A DNA stretch of 29,565 nucleotides, from positions 1 to 29,565 of the IMG/VR virus record IMGVR_UViG_3300048928_000222, one strand, 5' to 3'. Shown here piece after piece: positions 1,122 to 28,271 of this stretch (the first letter of the stretch is position 1; the number at the start of each line of letters is the position of its first letter). Position numbers and translations under genes: made by a program. The DNA is from a virus. Below the pieces are notes generated by a model, which was not told the DNA's origin, did not search any database, and saw only the letters and a list, made by a program, of their open reading frames with translations.

Positions 1122-1358
1122 GCGTTGTCTGATCACAAGACGCGCTCTACCCACCCTTATGGAGGGTGGCAATAATCAACGTGCGGGCGCGTACAAGTGG
1201 CATGCAGTGACCGTATCACTGGCGTCGAAAACTGGCAAACCCGCCAGCAAGCCCCAGCTGGAGGCTCGATCGAGACACAGGCCTGACCTGAGCACAAAAA
1301 TTGCGGAGGGGATCGGAGGGTGCGGAGCGGCCGGCATCCCCAAAAGCACTGGAGGACA
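1122..1358. other. Chromosomal intergenic stretch rich in inverted repeats
   Basis: No convincing gene is seen in this stretch between the terminator and the tRNA fragment. It holds several perfect inverted repeats: CCACCCT/AGGGTGG (1151-1157 and 1163-1169), CAGTGA/TCACTG (1205-1210 and 1216-1221) and CTGGCG/CGCCAG (1219-1224 and 1242-1247). Near its right end are two copies of the TGCGGAGSGG motif. It may be the 3' flank of the tRNA operon or may hold a structured RNA; the sequence alone does not decide. Confidence 0.4.
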
Positions 1359-1405
1359 TGGAGCGGGTGAAGGGAATCGAACCCTCGTCAGTAGCTTGGG
1401 AAGCT
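1359..1405 (-). repeat. Attachment-site junction: 3' half of tRNA-Gly(CCC)
   Basis: Read on the minus strand, this is the 3' part of a glycine tRNA: anticodon stem-loop AGCTTCCCAAGCT with anticodon CCC, variable region, T-arm GAGGGTTCGATTCCCTT, acceptor strand CACCCGC, discriminator T and encoded CCA. Beyond the anticodon arm (from 1406) the sequence no longer matches a tRNA: no 5' acceptor strand pairing with CACCCGC and no proper D-arm is present. A tRNA 3' half between host genes and phage genes is the classic remnant left by tyrosine-recombinase integration into a tRNA. The phage brings its own 3' half, so the intact tRNA is expected at the far prophage end, outside this window. Confidence 0.82.
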
Positions 1406-1445
1406 CATGGGCATACCATTACAAATCAATAGTATAGGCCTGGTT

Positions 1446-1522
1446 TCCGCTCCGCAATCTATGAGCAACCACCACAAAAAGTGCCTCGTTTCAGAGGGCG
1501 TCCTGAGGGATTGCGGAGCGGA
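1446..1522. repeat. 14-bp inverted repeat next to att core
   Basis: TCCGCTCCGCAATC at 1446-1459 is the exact reverse complement of GATTGCGGAGCGGA at 1509-1522, with 49 bases between. Near copies lie left of the att core: ATTGCGGAGGGGA at 1300-1312 (one mismatch) and TGCGGAGCGG at 1321-1330. Paired sites next to an att core would fit arm-type sites for integrase or excisionase, or an operator for the plus-strand gene that starts at 1589. The function is inferred only from position. Confidence 0.5.
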
Positions 1523-1588
1523 TTTTGGCTGAGCTTTGACCCCCGACTGGCCGGAGCTACCATTGAATCTCTACACAGGGGAAATGGA

Positions 1589-2320
1589 ATGACCATCAGT
1601 GATTGGATGATCGTAAGCGCGACGCTCTTGGGGCCGATCATCGCTGTCCAGGTTCAGAAGGCGATCGAACGAGCTAGGGACAGCCGTAATCAGAGGACCT
1701 GGGTCTTCCATCAGCTGATGGCCACGAGGGCAGCCCAGCTATCCCCCCAACACGTTGAAGCCCTGAACATGATCGATCTGGCGTTCTACGGAAAGGGCCC
1801 CGGCCGGCGCCGCAAGACCGCCCAGCGAGTTCTCGATCAATGGAAGGAGTACTTAGACCACCTCTCGGATCGCGATCTACGAGATCGAGACTCTAACGGC
1901 TGGGCCTCCAAGGGTGTGGACCTGCAAGTGGAACTGCTCGTGGCCATTGGCCAGGACGTTGGCTTTACCTTTGATCGCGTCCAGCTTCGAAAAGGAGCGT
2001 ACAACCCGGAGGCTCACGGGAGGATGGAAGACGAGCAAAACTTGGTGCGGCGTCTCGCTATAAACGTCTTGGAAGGCAGGACGCCGCTGTCTATGAACGT
2101 AGCAAGCTTCCCAGTGGATGAAGATGCCCTACGCGCCCAGACGGAGCTGTCCACCAAGCTGGGAGGGCTGATCGCTGATGGAGAGATTAAGGTTCGCCTG
2201 GTGGCGTCGGATGGGGCGCCACCATCAGGTGATAATGACCGGACCGCCGATGCGGCAGGCGTCACGTCCTCAACTCCTACCATGTCAAGGTCGCGGAAGA
2301 TCAATAGAAACAACGACTAA
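1589..2320 (+). CDS. DUF6680-like membrane-anchored protein
   Basis: A 243-residue protein whose first ~22 residues (ISDWMIVSATLLGPIIAV) form one probable N-terminal membrane anchor, followed by a basic, charged cytosolic part. The segment WVFHQLMATRAAQLSPQHVEALNMIDLAFYG matches what I recall of the DUF6680 family, which has no established function. ATG at 1589 is preferred over an open frame extending upstream to 1481, because AGGGGAA precedes it and the homology-like segment begins there. The C-terminal ~40 residues are low complexity (Ser/Thr/Asp/Arg). It is the first gene inside the prophage and is transcribed away from the att site, a common place for lysogenic-conversion or anti-phage genes. 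The family call is from memory and the role is unknown. Confidence 0.72.
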   Translation: MTISDWMIVSATLLGPIIAVQVQKAIERARDSRNQRTWVFHQLMATRAAQLSPQHVEALNMIDLAFYGKGPGRRRKTAQRVLDQWKEYLDHLSDRDLRDRDSNGWASKGVDLQVELLVAIGQDVGFTFDRVQLRKGAYNPEAHGRMEDEQNLVRRLAINVLEGRTPLSMNVASFPVDEDALRAQTELSTKLGGLIADGEIKVRLVASDGAPPSGDNDRTADAAGVTSSTPTMSRSRKINRNND

Positions 2321-3541: not shown

Positions 3542-4474
3542 CTACGCAGCCAGCCGATGCTGGTAGTACGGATGCCGCTTGTCGTCGAAGATTGCGTACA
3601 GCGCCCCCAAGTCGGCCGGGTTTGGGTTGAGCCAAGCATCCAAGTGTTCGGGCTTGATGTTGATGATCGTCCGGTCATGGCCAGCCTCGGCGACCTCGGG
3701 CTCGGGGTCATCGGTGATGGCGGCGAACGACAGCAGATCGGGCTCCTTGCCGGCCGGGTCCACCCAGTGCGACCACAGGCAGGCCACCAACATTGGGTCG
3801 CCGGTGCGGGGCGTGAACTGCACCACCTGGTTGCTGCCGTCCGGCCCCTCCACGTTCTCGTAGAAGGTGTCCACCACCATCAGCGCGTGCGTGTAGCCGA
3901 AGGCCGGCCGCCAGAAACCCTCCAGGCTGTCGCGCCTGGCGTTGTAGGTGCCGGGGTAGCGCTGGTCGTAGCTGGCCGGCTTCCCGGCTAGCCGGCACTG
4001 GTAGCGCATCGGCTTCACCACTCGGCTGCCGCCCTCGGACACGATGACGGTGCCGTACACCCCGGGGAAGATCCGCGAATCTCTTGCCACGTGGTCAGTG
4101 CGCCGGAGGTCGGCCAGCTTGCCCTGGGCCCGGGCAATCTTGTTGGTCGCCACTCGCACGTCGTTCTCGGCCTTCTTCGTGAACCTGGTCTGCAGCGCGC
4201 GCTCGGCGTTCACTAGGCGGGTCTTCTGGGTGAACAGCTCCTGCTCAAAGGCAGTGGCATCTCGGGCGTTCCAGTCCTGAATTGCCGCCCAGACCGCACG
4301 CTCGACAGGGGTCTTGCCCGCCGCGAATGCATCATCCATGGCCTTCGGCGTCTTTGGCCGCTTCTTGCCGGGATCGTGGGCATACAGCGCCGTGAACTCG
4401 TCCATAGACACGACTGCGCCGAACTCGCGCACGAGCTTGTGGTAATCGGCCTTGATTTGAGCGGAATAGCACAT
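3542..4474 (-). CDS. SRAP-domain protein (YedK/HMCES-like), enlarged
   Basis: A 310-residue member of the SRAP family, which covalently traps abasic sites in single-stranded DNA through an N-terminal cysteine exposed by Met removal. All four key residues are present: Cys2 (MCYSAQ), Asn178 (TYNARRDS), Glu206 (TFYEN) and His266 (AGHDR). ATG at 4474 is therefore chosen over an upstream in-frame start, which would bury the cysteine. E. coli YedK is about 222 residues; here about 100 extra, mostly helical and highly charged residues lie between Cys2 and the first conserved strands (roughly 20-135, e.g. RALQTRFTKKAENDVRVATN). It may shield phage DNA from abasic-site damage or base-excision defences; that role is inferred. 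Confidence 0.9.
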   Translation of the reverse strand: MCYSAQIKADYHKLVREFGAVVSMDEFTALYAHDPGKKRPKTPKAMDDAFAAGKTPVERAVWAAIQDWNARDATAFEQELFTQKTRLVNAERALQTRFTKKAENDVRVATNKIARAQGKLADLRRTDHVARDSRIFPGVYGTVIVSEGGSRVVKPMRYQCRLAGKPASYDQRYPGTYNARRDSLEGFWRPAFGYTHALMVVDTFYENVEGPDGSNQVVQFTPRTGDPMLVACLWSHWVDPAGKEPDLLSFAAITDDPEPEVAEAGHDRTIINIKPEHLDAWLNPNPADLGALYAIFDDKRHPYYQHRLAA

Positions 4475-4596
4475 GGCCGGATTACACCACGGCCCGCTCA
4501 AGGATCCGTGAGCGAAGAAAGCTGCTGAACCTTAACAAGCGGACGGCTATGATTCACCTTCGAGGGATCCCGGCCCGTCGCCAACCACAGAGGCCC

Positions 4597-4884
4597 ATGC
4601 CCAACACCGGACATTTCTATCTCGTTGACGTCAGTGGCCAAGCCGATGAGGCTGGGCGGCTCCTTGAAGTAACGAGCGTTCAGTGCCGATGCCTGCCGTG
4701 CGGCTGGTCGTTTGATGCCTTGCCTGGCCGGGGCCTGATTGCCATTGCGGGAGGGGCCGTTCTCGCCTGCCCGCATTGTGAGAATCGTCAGGCCGTCAGC
4801 CTCGCTAGATTTTCTGAGTTTATTGACCGCGTTGGCAGCGGGTCTCGTCCTGCACCCCCGGATGCCGATCACCTGAGCCGCTAG
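4597..4884 (+). CDS. Zinc-ribbon-like small protein
   Basis: A 95-residue protein with two CxxC knuckles, Cys32/Cys35 (CLPCGW) and Cys58/Cys61 (CPHC), plus Cys30, the spacing of a zinc ribbon. The first 25 residues form a likely strand region (GHFYLVDVSGQ) and the tail is proline-rich. ATG at 4597 follows AGAGG with a good gap; an in-frame ATG at 4549 has weaker support. It is divergent from the SRAP gene across 122 bases that must hold both promoters, so the two may be co-regulated. No function is assigned; zinc ribbons of this size usually bind nucleic acid or partner proteins. Confidence 0.68.
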   Translation: MPNTGHFYLVDVSGQADEAGRLLEVTSVQCRCLPCGWSFDALPGRGLIAIAGGAVLACPHCENRQAVSLARFSEFIDRVGSGSRPAPPDADHLSR

Positions 4885-17714: not shown

Positions 17715-19682
17715 TCAACCCCACATCGTCAGGACCACGTCGCCCGTGGCCGGGTTGCGCTCAACGCGCCGCACCAGCACTGCCTTACCCTCTTCCAGGC
17801 CGTACCTCGGGTACGTCAGCCGGCCGATCTGGCCGGGCTGGGGGGCCAGGCTCTGATCGCCGCGCACCGTCACCTGGTAGAAAAATCGCTGCTGACGGTA
17901 CATACCCACCACCCGGTCGATCTCGGACTGCGCGTCAGCCGCGTTCCAGAAGAGCGAGATCACCGGATCCGCCGCGTCCGCACGGCGATAGTGCTGGTGC
18001 AGCGCCCCGCCGCCGTAGACCTGCGCGCGGAACAGCCCGGTCAGCTCGTCGCGTCGGGCCTGCGGCACGTCCACCACATCCGTGACCAGGTCCGACGCAG
18101 CCAACGCCTGCGCGTTCGGGCGGTATGCCATGCGGCGTGTCAGGTTCGGCGCGTCGTCTGGCACCGCCACCAGATCCTCGGCCAGGTCGTTGGCCGTGAG
18201 CTCGAACGCCGGAGCACCACCGAACGTCTCGGGGGCCACCACCCGGGTGAAGCGCAGCACACCGGTGGCGTCCTGGTAGCAGGCGGCCCCATAGCTGGGG
18301 AGGATGGCGTTCATGGCATCTCGACCGGTGATCGCATTCCCGGCGTAGTACCCCACGCCCGCATAGCCGGTTGCTGCATCCATCGCGGCGCAGTCGCTGC
18401 CCGACCAAGAGGTTTTGCCCAGGCGGCCCATGATGTCCGCGATCACCTGCCGCAGCGTGGCTGGGCGCTGGCCGGGCCCGACGCTTGAAAGGTCGGCAAC
18501 CACCGGCGTGACCGGAGGCGACTTCATGATCAGCTGCTGCCCGTCGGGCGACAGATTAAACGTGCCCGGCTCCATGAGGTCACCGCGGTCCATCACCACA
18601 TCGGCGTAGACCACGCCGTCGGCCACGAACATCGCCGTCGCATCCGAGTTGGCACCCATCGCCGGCACACTGGCGACCGCACCGATCACCACCGGTTGCG
18701 GCTTCCACGCCAATGCCGCGATGTTCGGCATGAACACGCCGCGGTTGATCGCCTTATCCAGATCGTCGTGAGCATCGCGGAAGTGAACCGTCTTGCTGCC
18801 GTCGTCGTTGATCTCGATGCGGTCCACGGTGAAGCGGAACACGGCAGCTGTGTCCGCCAGCATTCCGGCGGAGCTGCCTGCCCGGATCTGGACCGGCATC
18901 CCCGAGGCGCCGGACAGCGCCAGGCTGTCCAGCAGGCCGTCGGCGTCGAGCACGACGCACTCAGCAGCACTGGTCTGGGTCACCGGGTCGCCGCCCCAAG
19001 GCCAGAAGTTGATCTCGCTGATCAGGTTCACCCCTTCCGCGATCAGCCCCTCGTAGCGTGCGTTTGCCGGCAGGTCGCCCGGTGCAGTCAGCCAGTCCGC
19101 GTCCGACAGGCGGGTTACGGGCCCGGAGGCCGTGACCACCCTCCAGCCGGCGAGTGCAGCCGGGCCCCGCGCGTTCCACTGCCCGGCGTTCACCACCATG
19201 CACAGACCACCGGCCTTACTCGCCGCGAGGGCACCGGCGAAGTGCAGCGGGCCCGCCAATGTGATGTCGCGCTGATGTACCTGTGTGGCGCCCAGGTAGA
19301 GCTGCAGGCGGGTCGGCGTGCCAAACACCACCCGCAGGCCGGCGATGTCACCGTGCTTGGCAATCGGTAGGCCGGTGGCGACAGCCGCGCCATTCAACAT
19401 CACCCGCCCCGTTCCCAGCTCCCACCCGACCCCCGCAGCCGTGGCCCCCGGGTAGGTATTGAGCGGAGCTGCCGCAGTGACAATGCCGACCACTGCCACC
19501 ATCGGGTCGTCGCCCCAAACGGCGAACTCGGCCCCTACCGTTCCCGTGCTTTGCGCCACGTCCGACTTGGCCATGCGGCTGATATTGGCCGCGGCGGTGG
19601 TGGCCAGAGTGAGGCCGCCGTCTCGCACCGCCAGCAGCGGGCCGATGGGAACCGCCGCGAAGCGCCCGAAATTGTCAGCCAT
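17715..19682 (-). CDS. Large tail-tip / hub-like tail protein
   Basis: A 655-residue protein that begins with a strand-rich domain (about 40-200) containing GVGWELGTGRVMLNG, resembling the GW...NG signature of SPRY/concanavalin-like folds. Later parts include VDRIEINDDGSKTVHFRDAH and a long C-terminal part ending QIGRLTYPRYGLEEGKAVLV and RRVERNPATGDVVLTMW, reminiscent of tail hub proteins that form the ring below the tube. It starts 3 bases after the stop of the chaperone GT frame. It should form part of the tail tip or baseplate; the exact equivalence to lambda L/K/J or Tal is not established. Its position before, not after, the tape measure is unusual. Confidence 0.72.
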   Translation of the reverse strand: MADNFGRFAAVPIGPLLAVRDGGLTLATTAAANISRMAKSDVAQSTGTVGAEFAVWGDDPMVAVVGIVTAAAPLNTYPGATAAGVGWELGTGRVMLNGAAVATGLPIAKHGDIAGLRVVFGTPTRLQLYLGATQVHQRDITLAGPLHFAGALAASKAGGLCMVVNAGQWNARGPAALAGWRVVTASGPVTRLSDADWLTAPGDLPANARYEGLIAEGVNLISEINFWPWGGDPVTQTSAAECVVLDADGLLDSLALSGASGMPVQIRAGSSAGMLADTAAVFRFTVDRIEINDDGSKTVHFRDAHDDLDKAINRGVFMPNIAALAWKPQPVVIGAVASVPAMGANSDATAMFVADGVVYADVVMDRGDLMEPGTFNLSPDGQQLIMKSPPVTPVVADLSSVGPGQRPATLRQVIADIMGRLGKTSWSGSDCAAMDAATGYAGVGYYAGNAITGRDAMNAILPSYGAACYQDATGVLRFTRVVAPETFGGAPAFELTANDLAEDLVAVPDDAPNLTRRMAYRPNAQALAASDLVTDVVDVPQARRDELTGLFRAQVYGGGALHQHYRRADAADPVISLFWNAADAQSEIDRVVGMYRQQRFFYQVTVRGDQSLAPQPGQIGRLTYPRYGLEEGKAVLVRRVERNPATGDVVLTMWG

Positions 19683-26347: not shown

Positions 26348-26595
26348 CAGTCGGCCCCATAAACATCGAAATCGGTATGCGCGTCAACGACTAAGATGCG
26401 GGCCCCAGGAAAGGTACGAACGAATTGCTCGCGCATTTCCTGCTCACGTCTGGCCGTCACCGGCGCCGTGGTCCTCACTACCACCAGGTCGCCCCGACGC
26501 ACTCGAATGGCACCATCTGAGGGACGCTTGTGGAACTGCAGTGGCGCGCGGCGAAGGCGAGACGCGAGCCATGCTTTAAGGGAGTGGAAGTTCAT
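26347..26595 (-). CDS. Small protein between terminase and portal
   Basis: An 82-residue basic protein (MNFHSLKAWLASRLRRAPLQ, then strands RVRRGDLVVVRTTAPVTARR, a helix, and ILVVDAHTDFDVYGAD). The start overlaps the TerL stop as TAATG and its own stop overlaps the portal start as TGATG, so it is tightly coupled to both. A short ORF here is common in HK97-like phages, but function is generally unknown. Confidence 0.82.
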   Translation of the reverse strand: MNFHSLKAWLASRLRRAPLQFHKRPSDGAIRVRRGDLVVVRTTAPVTARREQEMREQFVRTFPGARILVVDAHTDFDVYGAD

Positions 26596-28271
26596 TACAG
26601 GCTCCTAAGGCCCCGGCTTTCGTAGGGTGAGGCGGCCGGGGCCTCGTTAAGCATCGCGCGGCCCATTGCCATGATCAGCGCCACGGCGCCGTCGATCTTG
26701 TTGTCGTTCGATTCCTTGCGCGGATAGACGTGATCTTTTGCGTCTACCCTGGCAACCACGTTGCCCATCATCCAAGTCATTGCCGCATTGCCGTCGTGCC
26801 ACAGGCGCCGAGAGATGATCAGTGCCTCGACCTCTTTCATCGGCTCGGACAGGTTCCGGACCGACTGTGCCATTTCGACCACAGGCAAGCCTTCCTGACC
26901 CAGCCGCGTCATCAGGTAGGCCGCCTGCGTAGGATCGAATGCAATGTCTTGTATCTCGATGCCGCGCGCCGCCAGCTCCCTGAGTTCTTCCTCGATGAAA
27001 GCGTAGTCGGTCATGTTTCCGGGGGTAGACACCATCAGTCCTTGAAGGACGAATAGCTGGTAGCGCTCGCTCTCCTCCACGGCCGATTCCGGCACATAGA
27101 ACCTCGGCACCACGTGGTAGCCGCCGTCCTTCTCAAACAGCAGGACCACTGCGGCCACGTCCAGCTTGGAGGCCAAATCGACGCCCACCCAGCAGCGGCA
27201 CCCTTCGAAATCGTCCAGCTCAAAAGAGCGCGATTGCCGCTGCCACGCCAGCATGTTCATCCACGCGAGCTTGGCACCCACCCAGTCGTTCAAGTGCTTG
27301 GTGCGGAAGGCGCTCTGCTTGCTGGCAGACCGTTTTGCCTGCTCCAGCTGCGCCAGTAAGAATTCTTCGAAGACCGAAACGCCATAGTTGGGGTTGGCCT
27401 TGCGCAGGCTCGCCGGATCGTCCCACCGATCGCCCTCGTCGATGCCGAAGATCATCCCGAAGATGGTTTCGTCGGTGACCTCGCCTTCCAGAATTCGGAT
27501 CACGTCGCGCCGCTTCTCGTAACACGGCCCGCCCAGGTTGGTCCCGGCGGTGGTGATGATCCCCAGCAAGGGCTGCTCTCGCGCGCCCATGCCAGTCTGC
27601 ATCGCATCGACCATGTGGTCGGTGTCGTGCTCGTGGTATTCGTCCACCAGCGCCGCGTGCGGGCTGGACCCGTCACCTGGCTTGCCGATCATTGGCTCGA
27701 ACTTCGACATGTCCTCCATGACAAACATGGAGCCGGGGTTCTTCGGGTTGCCCGACTGCTCGATGCCGAAACGCGCACGCAGCGCGGGCATCTTCTGGAC
27801 CATCTGCCAAGCCGGCCGGTACACCTCGAAGGCCTGCTTTTCGCTGGTCGCACCCGAGTAGATCTCGGCACCGGCCTCGCCGTCGGCCGCGAACAGGTAC
27901 AGGCCCCGTGCAGCAAGGCGCAGCGACTTCCCGTTCTTTCGGGGGATCTCTTCGTAGGACTCGCGGAACCGGCGCATGCCGGTGGACTTGCGGACCCAGC
28001 CGAACAGGTTGCACTCGATGAAGTGCTGCCACGGCTCGTACACCAGTCGCTGTTTTTTCGCCGCCCACTTGCCCTTCGTGTGGGGCATCAGCTCTTGGAA
28101 CTTGACCGCGCGATCGGCCTTAGCCGCGTCGTACTTATACGGCCAGTCTGGGCCCGTGCGCTTCAGGTCCTCCAGAAACCGCTGGCAAGCTAGGATGATG
28201 TACCGTCCGGCCGGAATCTTCCCGGCCACCACGCTGCGTGCGTAGGCCTTGGCAGATTCGCTCGGGGTCAT
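26595..28271 (-). CDS. Terminase large subunit
   Basis: A 558-residue packaging motor ATPase/nuclease of the HK97/Terminase_1 type. The Walker A-like loop is PRKNGKS (110-116), Walker B is AALVDEYHEH with Asp-Glu at 210-211, and the coupling motif is GIITTAGT (about 237-244). The C-terminal RNase-H-like nuclease begins CRCWVGVDLASKLD with Asp365; its later acidic residues include FDPTQAAYL and the KIDGAVALIMAMG end. The ATG at 28271 lies 3 bases after the TerS stop. It pumps phage DNA through the portal and cuts the concatemer. Confidence 0.96.
   Translation of the reverse strand: MTPSESAKAYARSVVAGKIPAGRYIILACQRFLEDLKRTGPDWPYKYDAAKADRAVKFQELMPHTKGKWAAKKQRLVYEPWQHFIECNLFGWVRKSTGMRRFRESYEEIPRKNGKSLRLAARGLYLFAADGEAGAEIYSGATSEKQAFEVYRPAWQMVQKMPALRARFGIEQSGNPKNPGSMFVMEDMSKFEPMIGKPGDGSSPHAALVDEYHEHDTDHMVDAMQTGMGAREQPLLGIITTAGTNLGGPCYEKRRDVIRILEGEVTDETIFGMIFGIDEGDRWDDPASLRKANPNYGVSVFEEFLLAQLEQAKRSASKQSAFRTKHLNDWVGAKLAWMNMLAWQRQSRSFELDDFEGCRCWVGVDLASKLDVAAVVLLFEKDGGYHVVPRFYVPESAVEESERYQLFVLQGLMVSTPGNMTDYAFIEEELRELAARGIEIQDIAFDPTQAAYLMTRLGQEGLPVVEMAQSVRNLSEPMKEVEALIISRRLWHDGNAAMTWMMGNVVARVDAKDHVYPRKESNDNKIDGAVALIMAMGRAMLNEAPAASPYESRGLRSL

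Follow-up and report, generated by a model that had tools for sequence, protein, structure and literature searches.

A SRAP-family protein with a predicted helical-hairpin arm, encoded in a probable Stenotrophomonas-type prophage and shared with plasmids and chromosomes

SRAP proteins shield abasic sites in single-stranded DNA. Their known activity, as described for YedK, is the crosslinking and protection of abasic (AP) sites; mutants of Glu105 and His160 crosslinked far more slowly, and replacement of Asn75 by Ala had a slight effect (PMC9436759). Carriage of SRAP genes by temperate phages was already in print in 2013, with SPBc2 and a Burkholderia prophage as the examples (PMC3765255), and a SRAP protein has been reported from Marinobacter phage vB_MalS-PS3 (PMC8424206). 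The 2013 report also described SRAP genes beside UmuDC and ImuAB-DnaE2 (PMC3765255). In Acinetobacter prophage CP9 the SRAP gene lies upstream of umuC (PMC7273328), and in 2026 SRAP-like proteins were named putative PolY-binding subunits (PMC12926913). The UmuDC neighbourhood in phages and the ImuA-ImuB-DnaE2 neighbourhood on chromosomes are therefore already published contexts. Among titles and abstract openings in the open-licence literature, we found none that describes a helical insertion in a SRAP protein, and the parts of the cited literature available to us held no biochemistry on an arm-bearing one. Here we describe such a protein, encoded in a 29,565-nucleotide stretch of viral DNA (IMG/VR record IMGVR_UViG_3300048928_000222, positions 1 to 29,565; hereafter the window). 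Like the PF02586 SRAPs E. coli YedK and human HMCES, it has the Cys2, Asn, Glu and His residues and the core fold; unlike them, it has ~100 more residues, with a predicted helical hairpin after Cys2.

The gene is a minus-strand open reading frame running from 4474 to 3542, which begins with ATG and encodes 310 residues starting MCYSAQ (Table 1). A plus-strand reading of the same interval was ruled out by in-frame stops. The product matched the SRAP family PF02586 in Pfam (4.5e-19; 69.3 bits, above the curated threshold of 27.1) over residues 122–293, so that the match begins past most of the insertion. It also matched phrog_1599 (8.5e-34), and an NCBIfam scan of the protein returned no family at E 0.001. 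As a reference for insertion length we used L175, a short YedK-like SRAP of 221 residues from S. maltophilia. Profile alignment paired Asn178, Glu206 and His266 with the Asn, Glu and His of L175 (E 5.3e-6, probability 85.8); the YedK counterparts are Asn75, Glu105 and His160 (PMC9436759). Across 57 aligned relatives Glu206 and His266 are invariant, and Cys2 and Asn178 are at least 90% conserved. A tally over 164 relatives, made by pattern search with the missed rows read by eye, gave Cys at position 2 in 163 (exception, L106), the active-site Asn in 162, and Glu and His in 163. The exceptions at these last positions are a Lysobacter terrigena copy (L108, 6001–6945), in which Thr replaces the Asn, and a Paraburkholderia bryophila copy beside ImuA, ImuB and DnaE2 (L142, 6001–6960), which a stop codon truncates to 177 residues and which so lacks all three. 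A first-pass annotation of this DNA had called Cys2, Asn178, Glu206 and His266 intact; the reading frame, the alignment with L175 and the 57 aligned relatives all agree. Together with the predicted fold, these conserved residues make the protein a putative abasic-site crosslinker.

Table 1 Positions in the window of the SRAP gene, its arm and active-site codons, and neighbouring prophage features
Feature	Position	Strand	Basis
SRAP protein with hairpin arm	3542..4474	-	310 aa plus stop (P0001); ORF, Pfam, PHROG, AlphaFold, fold search
Insertion relative to short SRAPs, residues ~35-130	4085..4372	-	Profile alignment, AlphaFold model, fold search
Arm helix 1, residues 56-96	4187..4309	-	DSSP on AlphaFold model
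Arm helix 2, residues 100-124	4103..4177	-	DSSP on AlphaFold model
Cys2 codon (SRAP nucleophile)	4469..4471	-	From ORF; role as described in PMC9436759
Asn178 codon	3941..3943	-	ORF, profile alignment with L175, family alignment
Glu206 codon	3857..3859	-	ORF, profile alignment with L175, family alignment
His266 codon	3677..3679	-	ORF, profile alignment with L175, family alignment
Terminase large subunit	26595..28271	-	84% identical in three of 91 Stenotrophomonas genomes
Likely attachment site, tRNA 3'-end-like	1358..1406	.	49/49 bases identical in L006 and L003; tRNA likeness by eye
Divergent 111-aa gene (P0002), two CxxC pairs, ribbon-like	4549..4884	+	No Pfam match; conserved beside nearest phage SRAPs

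The alignment with L175 also defined the extent of the insertion. The shared SRAP core starts at residue ~134 in the window protein and at residue 32 in L175, leaving ~100 extra residues after Cys2, well beyond the ~30-residue spacing between Cys2 and the core in short SRAPs of the YedK/HMCES type. Since the insertion is found throughout the aligned family, it is not a product of chance. We then examined an AlphaFold2 model of the window protein, built from 57 sequences (mean pLDDT 91.4, pTM 0.87). In this model the insertion comprises a short helix (residues 44–52), a 41-residue helix (56–96), a tight turn and a 25-residue helix (100–124), the two long helices forming an antiparallel hairpin; block pLDDT values were 93–98 across residues 51–130. 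Residues 56–128 contain 14 K/R and 10 D/E. The first-pass annotation had described basic or charged helices inserted between Cys2 and the core strands and had proposed structure prediction among its checks; alignment, composition and model now bear this description out. A second model was obtained for L151, a member of a supported clade that holds chromosomal Stenotrophomonas copies (its own genomic context is unclassified), and gave identical hairpin bounds, 56–96 and 100–124, at pLDDT 91.2. In the models, the hairpin thus interrupts the N-terminal portion of the SRAP core.

Searching the PDB with the window model placed 15 SRAP entries on top, each at a Z score of at least 17.5, followed by unrelated hairpins at 7.8 or below. 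The best match was 1zn6 (Z 20.8, rmsd 2.8, 194 aligned), with HMCES 6oov (Z 19.6, rmsd 2.9, 204 aligned) and YedK 6kcq (Z 19.4, rmsd 2.9, 188 aligned) among the others; the model therefore has the SRAP (BB1717-like) fold, at 14–19% identity to solved SRAPs over the aligned core. The SRAP entries ranked the same with the L151 model (1zn6: Z 19.6, rmsd 2.8, 195 aligned). Hairpins outside the SRAP family, including those of SerRS, Gfh1 and topoisomerase I, scored at most 7.8 with the window model and 8.8 with the L151 model, and may match the arm through a common arrangement only. The Bordetella structures 1zn6 (227 aa, 211 resolved) and 2bdv (213 resolved; Z 17.5, rmsd 3.0, 185 aligned), both labelled 'phage-related' (1zn6 in its molecule name, 2bdv in its title), share the SRAP fold, but they are shorter, comprise the SRAP core and have no counterpart of the arm. 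1zn6 was the sole match in a profile search of PDB sequences. With the single window protein, phmmer found no match among PDB sequences, and a Foldseek search of BFVD with the window model returned nothing at E 0.001 or better. The published temperate-phage SRAPs (SPBc2, the Burkholderia prophage, vB_MalS-PS3 and Acinetobacter prophage CP9) resemble the window protein in being carried by temperate phages or prophages, whereas no arm is mentioned in the available parts of their accounts, with which the comparison is by description only.

Arm conservation was measured as the mean top-residue frequency in 107 non-redundant arm-bearing proteins. The distal arm is conserved nearly to core level, with frequencies of 0.73 for residues 79–96, 0.78 for the tip (97–100) and 0.69 for residues 101–113, against 0.78 for the core (129–310); the arm base is less conserved (0.48 for 56–78 and 0.57 for 114–128). 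Among the highest values in the arm were those of R86 and T99 (100% each), L94 (99%), R107 (98%), R125 (94%), K100 (91%) and K112 (90%, with K or R in 100%), and position 97 is K or R in 99%. The acidic positions E77, E79, E91 and D122 are also kept (84–85% for E77, E91 and D122), as is Phe81 (89%), which lies 122 degrees off the hydrophobic face. In an ideal-helix calculation, R92, K100, R107 and R125 point 138–158 degrees from that face, D122 is outward too (162 degrees), and R86 and K112 lie sideways, at 98 and 82 degrees. Because R92, K100, R107 and R125 face outward, they are unlikely to serve packing of the hairpin. Such conserved, outward basic residues point to a binding surface, for which we infer either DNA or a protein as the partner.

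Could the arm be a protein-docking or dimerisation element only, contacting UmuC, ImuB, RecA or its own copy but no DNA? Antiparallel hairpins often mediate protein contacts, and the conserved Phe81 and acidic positions would fit such a contact. The linkage of SRAP genes to polymerase genes and the proposed binding of PolY by SRAP-like proteins (PMC12926913) point the same way. However, the outward conserved residues R92, K100, R107 and R125 are basic and fit DNA at least equally well, and we lean against a purely protein-binding arm while counting it a real possibility.

We next consider where arm-bearing SRAPs occur. Relatives are encoded in 177 stretches of viral contigs, the best 80 of which are 67–96% identical over nearly their full length. 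Bacterial genomes gave 493 confirmed relatives, of which the best 80 come from Stenotrophomonas, Xanthomonas, Lysobacter, Luteimonas, Dyella, Paraburkholderia, Variovorax and others; 114 plasmid records also match, 89 of them across at least 80% of the query. A survey of 91 Stenotrophomonas genomes used as query the chromosomal 318-residue copy of S. maltophilia E301 (G003), which is ~56% identical to the window SRAP. It matched 75 genomes, 67 of them full-length at 73% identity or more and the other eight more weakly. The 318-residue Stenotrophomonas copies L166–L171 share the arm and the active site with the window protein (~56–58% identity) but differ in a longer loop past FYEH and in the C-terminus. 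One of them, L166, lies amid host genes and adjoins AraC, MerR, GGDEF and MCP genes. Its neighbourhood is common to four genomes (86–94% identical at the DNA level to L167, L168 and L169 across most of 8.5 kb), and we read L166 as host DNA. Just upstream of the SRAP gene in L166, at 2160–2994, are several copies of a ~200-base repeat, with similar repeats in L167–L171. The SRAPs beside ImuA, ImuB or DnaE2, for example on B. cenocepacia and Cupriavidus plasmids and in Paraburkholderia and Lysobacter, are likewise arm-bearing and ~48–65% identical to the window protein; unlike it, they are encoded within or next to mutasome genes.

Arm-bearing SRAPs are thus not restricted to phages, as the Stenotrophomonas chromosomes, the 114 plasmid records and the host-gene flanks of L166 indicate. 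Since the arm is common to chromosomal and plasmid homologues, it is not a phage invention, and a reading in which only phage versions carry the insertion does not stand. By these comparisons, the window SRAP belongs, as an unremarkable member, to a broad subfamily of arm-bearing SRAPs in Lysobacterales and Burkholderiales.

This distribution bears on a counter-defence role, also raised in the first-pass annotation, in which the protein would shield abasic sites cut into phage DNA by host glycosylase defences. The gene is phage-borne, its SRAP active site is intact, and SRAP proteins are known to crosslink and protect AP sites (PMC9436759). Yet host chromosomes commonly carry homologues with this arm, plasmids have them too, deletion of YedK is reported to have left Brig1 immunity to T4 unaltered (PMC11078745), and no base-modification family appeared among the 21 scanned of 173 mechanically called window ORFs, a weak negative. 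The annotation had itself named, as grounds for refutation, host chromosomal homologues sharing both the insertion and the function; the shared structure is what we found, in the 318-residue copy and in the L151 hairpin. PADLOC, whose library covers defence and not counter-defence, matched no defence model among ten proteins in and around the SRAP gene. We consider counter-defence very improbable.

Phylogeny raised a different alternative. In a tree of 107 arm SRAPs and two short SRAPs, the phage sequences do not form one group; at least eight label changes are needed, six of them forced by well-supported branches, with 35 of the 107 arm-SRAP rows carrying no context label. At their distance the two short SRAPs give no usable root, so we claim no direction of transfer. 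Such intermixing of phage and chromosomal copies would suit selfish or host-derived cargo that is functionless for the phage. Against this, the active site and the arm are conserved across many phages, which implies selection, and we give mere cargo little credence.

The surroundings of the gene are those of a phage: the window, a virus record, carries minus-strand genes for the terminase large subunit (TerL), portal, protease, major head and tail proteins, and the earlier description of the SRAP gene as phage-borne stands on them. The window TerL matches 23 of the 91 Stenotrophomonas genomes, at 84% identity in three and at most 35% in the rest. In G037 and G073 an arm-SRAP (77% and 76% identical to that of the window) lies 18–19 kb downstream of TerL on the same strand, and in G071 the 84% TerL and an arm-SRAP are on separate contigs. 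At the other side, window positions 1 to ~560 are 94–95% identical in L006 and L003 and include a minus-strand ORF that looks ATP-grasp-like by eye. Megablast of positions 1–25000 hit two records, by ~50 bases each, at the tRNA-like stretch of Table 1, in which ARAGORN found no full tRNA. We read this stretch as a likely attachment site and the DNA to its left as likely host DNA. On this evidence from sequence, the window represents one end of a prophage of Stenotrophomonas type, and the record is probably a piece of an integrated one. The late genes lie on one side of the SRAP gene and the likely attachment site on the other, at a distance of 2.1 kb; lysogenic cargo genes often lie between the late operon and the attachment site. 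A search of the named phage collection with the window SRAP (tblastn) gave no match, and Rfam at gathering thresholds gave nothing in the window.

Other genes were noted around it. Between the attachment-like stretch and the SRAP gene lies a DUF6680 gene (1481–2320, plus strand; PF20385, 1.4e-50), and a DUF6680 protein 66% identical to its product is also found near the G073 prophage SRAP. The 111-residue CxxC gene also recurs, less similar in sequence, at other places in some loci, with two copies downstream of the SRAP gene in L019, L021, L028, L029 and L031. Farther along, at 17715–19682 on the minus strand, a 655-residue protein matches phrog_8917 (1.7e-138), a family without assigned function.

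Regulatory signals were sought by pattern and by scan. Five LexA-type consensus patterns, which may differ from the host's own box, found no match upstream of the window SRAP; across 173 upstream stretches each matched 0 to 3, none convincing. The promoter scan found no promoter-like site against 0.4 expected from shuffles, and the terminator scan found one terminator-like site, inside the SRAP gene, against 1.3 expected. The LexA result touches on the 2013 proposal, made for the SPBc2 and Burkholderia prophage SRAPs, of a protease-like damage-sensor switch for prophage induction (PMC3765255). The C, E and H residues on which it would draw are present in the window SRAP, but later biochemistry assigns the Glu and His a role in crosslinking AP sites (PMC9436759), the gene lies 2.1 kb from the likely attachment site, and no SOS box was seen with these patterns. 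Such a switch seems very improbable to us.

To place the gene among translesion polymerases, contexts were counted by tblastn with marker proteins. UmuC, UmuD, ImuA, ImuB and DnaE2 had no match in the window, and the window gene is therefore outside a mutasome cluster. Among the best 80 of 493 genome loci, ImuA, ImuB or DnaE2 lies near the SRAP gene in 29, and in 15 the end of a same-strand DnaE2 gene is under 300 bp upstream of it; phage tail markers occur in 14 of the same 80, with no overlap with those 29. UmuC matched in 15 of the best 80 of 177 viral loci and in nine of the 80 genome loci. A subset of 50 phage records, taken from the 80 viral loci mostly for their long contigs, includes 11 with a Y-family polymerase, within 3 kb of the SRAP gene in ten and at 5.8 kb in one; as the polymerase-carrying phages are related, this is not a count of independent events. 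L045 is outside the 11, having UmuC by tblastn but no PF00817 match in the whole record. No Y-family polymerase was detected in the other 39 records, which may be fragments. On plasmids, the SRAP gene of B. cenocepacia HI2424 is followed by ImuA and a Y-family polymerase, and that of C. oxalaticus has an error-prone polymerase and a Y-family polymerase beside it; in the stretches viewed of the X. citri and Variovorax plasmid regions there were no such neighbours.

Taking these contexts together with the arm surface, we somewhat favour a reading in which the prophage-borne arm-SRAP crosslinks abasic sites and uses its arm to bind DNA or a translesion-polymerase partner. Once Met1 is removed, Cys2 would react with abasic sites of single-stranded DNA to give a thiazolidine crosslink, aided by Glu206 and His266. 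The distal arm would present the basic residues R86, R92, K/R 97, K100, R107 and K112, with R125 nearer the base, and would probably hold either DNA or the polymerase partner. Damaged, gapped phage or host DNA could in this way be shielded and then handed to a mutasome, that is, host ImuABC, or phage UmuDC where present, and the prophage gene would serve the phage or the lysogen. Several observations count against this mechanism: the window shows no match to a translesion-polymerase gene, the LexA-type patterns found no box, and in 39 of the 50 phage records, some perhaps fragments, no Y-family polymerase was detected. The conserved acidic positions E77, E79, E91 and D122 of the arm count against it as well, as does the commonness of hairpins in general. 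A bolder extension, which we put forward tentatively and think doubtful, is that arm-SRAPs are a dedicated mutasome subunit. The basic hairpin tip would clamp primed or gapped DNA and dock on a Y-family polymerase or ImuB, turning an AP-site shield into a lesion hand-off device that is exchanged among temperate phages, plasmids and chromosomes.

An arm-bearing subfamily encoded partly beside mutasome or Pol V genes bears on how SRAP shielding may be coupled to bacterial lesion bypass, and a conserved basic arm so widespread on phages, plasmids and chromosomes offers a handle on crosslinking, polymerase binding and mutagenesis. The candidate host partner ImuB was present in all nine Stenotrophomonas genomes tested. 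As a further observation, ImuB and the chromosomal arm-SRAP lie in the same chromosomal region without being adjacent, ~25–26 kb apart in G003, G004, G005, G037 and G073, ~20 kb in G071 and 30 kb in G002.
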